NCBI GenBank assembly: GCA_012744395.1
Contig: JAAYCB010000444.1
Coordinates: 1-46,232, forward strand
Direction of reading: 5' to 3'
Length of the DNA stretch: 46,232 nucleotides
Source: Pirellulaceae bacterium
GTDB lineage: Bacteria > Planctomycetota > Planctomycetia > Pirellulales > Thermoguttaceae
The position numbers were made by a program, and so were the translations under genes. Below the pieces are notes generated by a model, which was not told the DNA's origin, made no database searches, and was given only the letters and a program-made list of their open reading frames with translations. Within the stretch, counting starts at the first letter, position 1. Each line of letters starts with the position of its first letter. Below, piece by piece: positions 36,567-37,713 of the stretch.

Positions 36567-36961
36567 GCGTTCAGGGAACCCTTCCGCGAAGCGGTCTTTT
36601 CCGATGTTACCACGGTTACGGCCCGCATTGATGCCAAAATCGGTTCGCGTGCCCCAACGGCTGAAGACGGCACCCGCCAGCCGGTCCTGCATACCCAAAG
36701 CATAAAGTCGCAGTTCCGCGGGTTCATCCGCCGGGGTCAAAAGAAATGCAGCCAGCGCCGAGATACCGCCCCAGGGGGGGGCTCCCGCCCACGCACGCAG
36801 CTCGGCAATCGCCTCGCTCCATGCAGCACATGCCCCATCGCGCTTCAGTCGATCCTAACTACCGCTCCGCCGACCGTCAAGCCGTACTTGAAGTCCGAAA
36901 CAGCCGCCAACCCCCCCCGAACGATTGGTGCAATCCCCCTTCCGCGGAAACGGGCGGCGAC
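36567..36961. other. intergenic region upstream of the exporter gene
   Basis: No gene is supported in these bases. A G8 run lies at about 36774-36781. The region holds the leader of the exporter gene, but no convincing promoter pair was found. Confidence 0.35.
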
Positions 36962-36999
36962 AAAAAAACGCCCGCTCCGACTCGCGGCCGGAACGGGCG
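36962..36999 (-). terminator. intrinsic (rho-independent) terminator
   Basis: On the minus strand a stem of 10 bp with one mismatch (CGCCCGTTCC / GGAGCGGGCG) with an 11-base GC-rich loop is followed directly by seven Ts (36968-36962). It ends transcription arriving from the candidate small RNA and the zinc-ribbon EIIA gene. It is the best terminator in the window. Confidence 0.85.
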
Positions 37000-37085
37000 A
37001 CTTGTGGGCGAAACAAAGAGGGCCGTATGGTGGGGCAGGGACCATACGACCCGAGGTTGTGGACGTGAATCCACAACCAGTGAAC
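36962..37085 (-). ncRNA. candidate structured small RNA, about 124 nt
   Basis: On the minus strand, a predicted start 5 to 9 bases after a TATACT box gives a transcript that folds into three stem-loops. The first is a perfect 9-bp stem (GGTTGTGGA/TCCACAACC, 37078-37055, loop of 6). The second is a 10-bp stem with one mismatch (GTCGTATGGT/ACCATACGGC, 37050-37022). The third is the intrinsic terminator (36999-36962). No open frame with coding character covers it. The region contrasts with neighbouring genes in having paired stems instead of G/C at third positions. It could instead be a long structured 3' end of the EIIA gene. No known RNA family was recognised. Confidence 0.5.
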
Positions 37086-37089
37086 GAGT

Positions 37090-37117
37090 AGTATATATTG
37101 CTGATCGTCGCCTGCAA
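37090..37117 (-). promoter_or_regulatory. candidate promoter for the small RNA
   Basis: TATACT (37095-37090, 5 of 6) is preceded after 16 bases by TTGCAG (37117-37112, 3 of 6). The surrounding TATATAC patch is markedly AT-rich for this genome. It lies between the EIIA-like gene end (37189) and the stem-loops. Confidence 0.45.
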
Positions 37118-37188: not shown

Positions 37189-37713
37189 TCAGCCCGAGCG
37201 GAGGAAACGCGAAATCCGCTCCAGTGCCCGCAGGTGGTCGCCCGGCTGGTTCGGCGGCGAAAGCAGCAGGAAGATCGTCTTGACCGGCGCCCCGTCGAGG
37301 CTGTGGAAATCGACGCCGCCGGGCGCATAGCCGACGGTCCCAACCACCCGCGCGATCGAGGGGTGTTTCACGTGTGGCACAGCGCACTCATACCCGATCG
37401 CCGTCGTTCCCAGTTGCTCGCGGCGGATCAACGAGTCGATCACGTCGGGCAGCGATTTCTGCGGCACGTGGCCGTGCTCCGCCAGGCTCCGCACCAGCAG
37501 CCCGATCGCCTCGTTGCGGTCGCCGGGCTGCATCGCGTGGAGGATCGCCTCGTGCACGAGGAAATCGAACTGTTCAACGCCCGGCAGGTGCGGAAGCCAG
37601 AGAACATACCCGCAGCTCGGACAGGGCATGTTGCCGGGCGGAGCCGTCGGTTCGATCGGCAGCTCCTTCTGGCAATTCGGGCAGCAGCGGAAATGGCTCG
37701 TGGGCGTCGGCAT
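37189..37713 (-). CDS. zinc-ribbon + EIIA(Ntr)-like (PtsN) protein
   Basis: The protein has 174 residues. Residues 8-36 hold a zinc ribbon (CPNC at 11-14 and CPSC at 31-34). Residues about 50-174 are a PTS EIIA type-2 domain: HEAILHAMQPGDRNEAIGLLVRSLAEHG, IRREQLGTTAIGYECAVPHVKHP, where His114 aligns with the phosphorylated histidine, and KTIFLLLSPPNQPGDHLRALERISRFLR. EIIA(Ntr) proteins usually work in regulation, not sugar uptake. The zinc ribbon at the N-terminus is unusual. It follows the flippase-like gene by 21 bases, so the two are likely one operon. Confidence 0.85.
   Translation of the reverse strand: MPTPTSHFRCCPNCQKELPIEPTAPPGNMPCPSCGYVLWLPHLPGVEQFDFLVHEAILHAMQPGDRNEAIGLLVRSLAEHGHVPQKSLPDVIDSLIRREQLGTTAIGYECAVPHVKHPSIARVVGTVGYAPGGVDFHSLDGAPVKTIFLLLSPPNQPGDHLRALERISRFLRSG

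Follow-up and report, generated by a model that had tools for sequence, protein, structure and literature searches.

To our knowledge, Helicobacter pylori has no Hfq. Its intergenic small RNA RepG has a second stem-loop that is the terminator, and the C/U-rich loop of this terminator pairs with G-rich targets, such as the G repeats in the tlpB leader (PMC8295292). In Alphaproteobacteria, the cuckoo, alpha-r14 and CcsR RNAs display a loop motif, CCUCCUCCC, that constitutes an anti-Shine-Dalgarno sequence, and the CcsR RNAs arise by processing of a single transcript that carries the gene for a DUF1127 protein (PMC10746234, PMC10253847). The whole Planctomycetes-Verrucomicrobia-Chlamydiae group has yielded very few known small RNAs, with 8 in one review table (PMC9029176). 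The Rhodopirellula-1 motif, according to its table entry, occurs in Planctomycetes and Proteobacteria, was judged probably cis-regulatory and carries no Rfam number (Weinberg et al. 2010, PMC2864571).

Here we analyzed a stretch of DNA of 46,232 nucleotides (the window) from a Pirellulaceae bacterium, in which a small RNA with a C-rich loop is predicted on the minus strand. A search of Rfam 15 gave nothing above the gathering threshold, the best sub-threshold matches being far under their thresholds, and a literature search returned no description of the family to which this RNA belongs. Like Rhodopirellula-1, as far as that motif can be compared by its table entry only, the RNA is a candidate from Planctomycetes; its family differs from that entry in that it looks free-standing and that, outside Planctomycetota, it gave only single matches, possibly from mis-binned contigs. 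The family is thus a previously uncatalogued one of putative small RNAs with a C-rich loop, whose general plan is known from RepG and the cuckoo RNAs.

Elements of the window locus

An earlier note had read this locus as an independent small RNA. The elements that it listed on the minus strand, namely a TATACT box, hairpins and a terminator with seven T, are all present where they had been placed. A -35-like box that the note lacked (TTGCAG, 37117-37112) is separated by a spacer of 16 nucleotides from the -10-like box (TATACT, 37095-37090). With a start placed about 7 nucleotides past the -10 box and an end at the U run, and by comparison with homologues, the predicted RNA would span 36962-37083, or about 120 nucleotides. 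Hairpin 1 (37055-37078) contains 10 pairs in the predicted fold; nine of these are Watson-Crick pairs, in agreement with the 9-bp hairpin described before, and one is U-G. Hairpin 2 (37020-37052) had been given as a 10-bp hairpin with one mismatch; a hairpin does lie there, but it is somewhat longer, with 12 pairs including one U-G, and it is supported by covariation as well as by the fold. Its loop, CCCUGCCCC (37032-37040), is the proposed pairing or binding site. Immediately 3' of this hairpin is UCUUUGUUUCGC (37008-37019), which, in comparison with the intact U run at this place in relatives, appears to be a broken remnant. Hairpin 3 (36999-36969, 13 pairs, 10 of them G-C) and the seven T that follow (36968-36962) together make up an intrinsic terminator (36962-36999) that occurs only in this copy among those inspected.

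The 124-nucleotide stretch folds with -62.1 kcal/mol, compared with -37.2 kcal/mol for dinucleotide shuffles (z = -7.4; 0 of 200 as good), and hairpin 1 of this copy likewise stands out from its shuffles (z = -5.0). Mechanically called open reading frames run across the region; among relatives, neither the covariation of the stems nor the differences in spacing hint at coding.

The neighboring genes lie on one shared strand and encode an LPG_synthase_TM-type membrane protein, an EIIA-type PTS protein whose N-terminal part is zinc-ribbon-like with a CxxC motif, and an MMPL exporter. The gene with the EIIA(Ntr)-type domain (37189-37713, minus strand) has four cysteines in this N-terminal part, which gave a weak Anti-TRAP match, and the genome of the window encodes two more EIIA relatives. 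A functional tie between the RNA and EIIA(Ntr), which had been proposed from their proximity, is not borne out, in that synteny is not kept and homologues of the RNA sit in many different contexts. Specifically, an EIIA orthologue from the same genus, with 87% identity, precedes an oxidoreductase gene, with no such RNA after it, and the next-best EIIA relatives likewise lack the RNA. A link to the MMPL exporter was also rejected: no such RNA was found upstream of the gene in seven relatives, and a contig from the same genus begins inside the gene. The end of a same-genus contig (L305 1-20, G001:C1156) breaks at AAAAAGCTATTGCA, which resembles AAAAAAGTATTGCA just 5' of the window promoter, so a copy of the RNA may be hidden in the assembly gap. 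Separately, the DNA that separates the small RNA from the MMPL exporter gene contains a run of eight G (36911-36918, minus strand). The character of this run is opposite to that of the C-rich loop, and it could be a cis target, or nothing.

A covarying hairpin with a constant loop in Pirellulales

A plain DNA similarity search returned short chance matches only, and none in plasmids. We therefore ran a covariance model (R1), for which the window sequence was the only input, on 100 relatives. It gave full-length matches in several families of the order; the top one (L082) reached 47 bits and an E value of 3.7e-10, and G093, G061, G075, G094 and G078 followed at E values of 1e-8 to 1e-6. These matches were obtained before the loop motif was known. 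What is conserved among them is hairpin 2 with a common loop, rather than the three-hairpin layout, so that the family-defining element is the loop CCCUGCCCC of hairpin 2 (37040-37032 in the window), which the earlier note had missed. The loop has the form (U/C/A)CCUGCCCC, with the family consensus NCCUGCCCC, and is mostly closed by GGU/RCC. In the relatives, hairpin 2 serves as the terminator and is followed by a U run and often by GCGC, and its 5' side is occupied by a sequence-unrelated hairpin and a promoter-like element.

In 64 of the 147 genomes of the order, a pattern scan located the motif beside T runs, frequently at several places in one genome, and the reversed control gave few matches. 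A second model, R2, was built for hairpin 2 and its tail from 58 sequences, including the window. At E<=1e-5 it matched 88 of the 147 genomes of the order, with 1-9 copies each, and at E<=1e-4 it matched 30 of the 41 genomes of the family of the window; most genomes have one or two copies. Among genomes from other orders of the phylum, 6 of 380 reached an E value of 1e-5, and the five inspected of these six were terminators without the loop, as were the weak matches inspected beyond the order (E values of about 1e-6 to 1e-2), which were ordinary terminators.

The hairpin 2 stem was examined in alignments of 54 and 58 copies. Overall, 92% of cells are paired, compared with 70% in shuffles, and 150 cells are changed on both sides, compared with 45. 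The covariation score is 0.64 against 0.23 in shuffles; sliding the partners makes it collapse. Because the sequences in these two sets had been selected with a folding filter, we turned to an independent set of 84 copies, matched only by AGGTNCCTGCCCCRCCT followed by TTTTT in 84,980 species and collected with no such filter. At eight of the nine outer stem positions, 73-83 of these 84 sequences form a pair, and 65 do so at the last; many pair types occur. The compensatory stem changes in planctomycete homologues that had been suggested as a check on the small RNA are thus found, as strong covariation in hairpin 2. The named matches of this pattern belong to Pirellulales, Thermoguttaceae and other planctomycetes, except for three contigs that are loosely named or probably mis-binned; outside Planctomycetota there are single matches only, and these may be mis-binned contigs.

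Invariance of the loop is partly a matter of selection, since for most copies the octamer was part of the collecting pattern. The R1 and R2 copies carry the loop with no requirement for the octamer, although R2 nevertheless favors it. A few members (L191, L212 and L180) have the octamer in both hairpins. The sequence of hairpin 1 varies across the family, but in 51 of 66 copies a hairpin at this place is significantly stable in comparison with its shuffles (p<=0.05). The window copy shares with the family both the hairpin with a NCCUGCCCC loop on a covarying stem and the combination of an upstream hairpin 1 with a sigma-70-type promoter 38-47 nucleotides 5' of the loop-bearing motif.

Two observations lie to the side of these comparisons. 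GCGC occurs within 4 nucleotides past the U run at 55 of 92 family terminators (seen in the L181-L260 and L082-L180 loci), compared with about 13% of other terminators (general terminators from L309-L348) and with 2-6% of T runs that lack a hairpin. Such conserved DNA past a terminator was unexpected. In addition, look-alike hairpins in three genomes of one related family (f2; L158 ~1500, minus strand; L169 ~1432, plus strand; L174 ~1476, minus strand) were left out of the family because they contain CCTGCCCC but differ in stem and loop. They read GCCCCG..GGCTTGGGTGGG-loop-CCCCACCCARGCCGGGGC with a T run, are conserved and terminator-like, and are possibly another RNA family.

Promoters, copies and gene context

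The window promoter has 8 of 12 consensus bases, a score that is reached by 5% of shuffles and that lay under the cut in a consensus promoter scan. Although unremarkable alone, it is convincing because relatives carry the same element at the same distance. Their -10 boxes are mostly 38-47 nucleotides 5' of the loop-bearing hairpin motif, the distance in the window being 45 nucleotides. TTG(A/C)-type boxes stand at the place of the -35 box, and several members have a promoter of the type TTGCAN-16-NATACT. Over 81 family loci the best sigma-70 score is 8.1 of 12, compared with 4.4 in shuffles, and 46% of these loci score at least 9, compared with 0.8% of shuffles. With its own promoter and terminator and its full-length homologues, the reading of the locus as an independent small RNA is well supported.

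Some genomes carry the RNA in tandem, with at least four copies in 1.2 kb in one array (L141 1234-2464) and three copies in 0.4 kb in another (L142 1273-1767); each of these copies has its own promoter-like element, and their hairpins 1 differ. Two contexts recur: in one, the RNA is flanked by a divergent ArgE/DapE-like peptidase gene and by nuoA; in the other, it lies beside a divergent TraB/GumN-like gene. When genes were called mechanically, 40 downstream genes ran in the direction of the RNA and 33 against it, and 53 upstream genes pointed away from the RNA, as against 25. Own promoters and terminators, together with mixed downstream orientation, fit free-standing genes rather than leaders or 3' ends. 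It is true that hairpin 2, together with its U run, makes a good intrinsic terminator, and that several copies are located just 5' of nuoA, as might be expected if the hairpins simply belonged to the gene before them, as its 3' end, or to the gene after them, as an attenuated leader. We regard this explanation as very improbable, given the promoters at a fixed distance upstream, the diversity of the downstream genes in either orientation, the upstream genes that mostly point away, and the lack of the loop in general terminators. Moreover, in the genome of the window a separate promoter-like element, TTGACC-17-TAGAAT (identified by eye), lies between the RNA and nuoA. These comparisons establish a family of putative free-standing small RNA genes in Pirellulales, with a covarying stem, a constant loop, a fixed promoter distance, multiple copies and diverse contexts.

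The genome of the window has two strong copies, of which the canonical one (G000:C138:10507-10556) lies upstream of nuoABC, where many members sit. It scores 58.9 bits with R2, compared with 50.5 bits (E value 6e-10) for the window copy, which is itself among the 58 source sequences of the model. The direct U run after hairpin 2 that is usual, if not universal, in the family is broken in the window copy (UCUUUGUUUCG), where UCUUUGUUUCGCCC and the separate hairpin 3 are found instead; what this copy has kept is the loop, the two stems and the geometry of the promoter. We filed this copy as a divergent member because the clean U run is missing, and on sequence comparison the predicted RNA of the window represents a divergent paralogue that carries one terminator hairpin more. 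Hairpin 2 would have lost its clean U run and the added hairpin 3 would supply termination, giving a predicted transcript of about 120 nucleotides, compared with 80-95 for canonical copies. Alternatively, within a real family, the window copy might be a paralogue in decay that has lost its expression, leaving the canonical copy as the functional gene. The higher score of the latter, and in the window the broken U run and weaker promoter (8/12), lean toward decay, but a copy with both stems and the loop intact, a perfect new terminator with seven U, and promoter spacing and distance equal to those of other members makes it an unlikely explanation. It is compatible with either pairing or protein binding as the role of the family.

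Possible partners of the loop

The proposed gene plan consists of a sigma-70-type promoter, a variable 5' hairpin and a 3' hairpin that would present the nine-base NCCUGCCCC loop and usually double as the terminator. The loop, unpaired in the fold and invariant on a drifting stem, appears to be the working part. Hfq was detected in 0 of 30 and ProQ in 0 of 20 Pirellulales genomes, with control genomes positive in both searches, which sets the family apart from Hfq- or ProQ-dependent small RNAs. We infer that the RNA would act in trans through the exposed loop, which would pair with G-rich GGGGCAGG-like sites in selected mRNAs with neither chaperone. The explanation that we favor, and consider probable, is that a divergent member of a small RNA family spread across Pirellulales lies in the window, and that the loop of this family is, by analogy with RepG and the cuckoo RNAs, an Hfq-independent pairing site.

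Complements of the loop (hexamers to octamers of the GGGCAGG type) were not enriched at translation starts, either in 836 pooled genes or in 475 genes of one complete relative, so broad masking of Shine-Dalgarno sequences is unlikely and was set aside. The 23S rRNA was also rejected as a partner, since two relatives have no GGGGCAGG in their 23S rRNA loci. The same lack of enrichment would suit an RNA whose NCCUGCCCC loop is bound by a conserved RNA-binding protein, as a CsrB/RsmZ-like decoy or a recruiting loop. The constancy of such a protein would explain that of the loop across the order while the stems drift, and the multiple or tandem copies, as well as some members in which each hairpin bears the octamer, point in the same direction. 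However, the loop contains no GGA and is therefore not a CsrA/RsmA-type site, and the one or two copies in most genomes are few for a titrating decoy. We rank pairing first, and protein binding second, as a distinctly less likely alternative.

Canonical copies share with RepG two stem-loops and a C/U-rich terminator loop, but this likeness is one of plan only. The sequence in common is limited to C-richness, the phylum is another, and the octamer CCUGCCCC and the multicopy spread are peculiar to the Pirellulales family. With the cuckoo, alpha-r14 and CcsR RNAs it shares several hairpins, an ultraconserved C-rich loop, highly variable stems and multiple copies, sometimes in arrays. In contrast to these RNAs, the Pirellulales loop is NCCUGCCCC rather than CCUCCUCCC, its complement is unenriched at starts, and each copy has its own promoter, unlike the CcsR RNAs, in addition to belonging to another phylum. 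As the defining cuckoo motif is lacking, we consider this a new family that at most works like RepG or the cuckoo RNAs.

A family that spans the order and keeps its seed fixed offers a concrete handle on post-transcriptional control in bacteria that have neither Hfq nor ProQ, and through the invariant loop its partner becomes directly searchable. We tentatively suggest that in this order, which appears to lack both chaperones and shares multicopy small RNAs, the nine-base loop, on scaffolds that drift freely, may serve as a common address for a conserved RNA or protein partner, and that the family could be a global post-transcriptional regulator of planctomycetes with no described counterpart.
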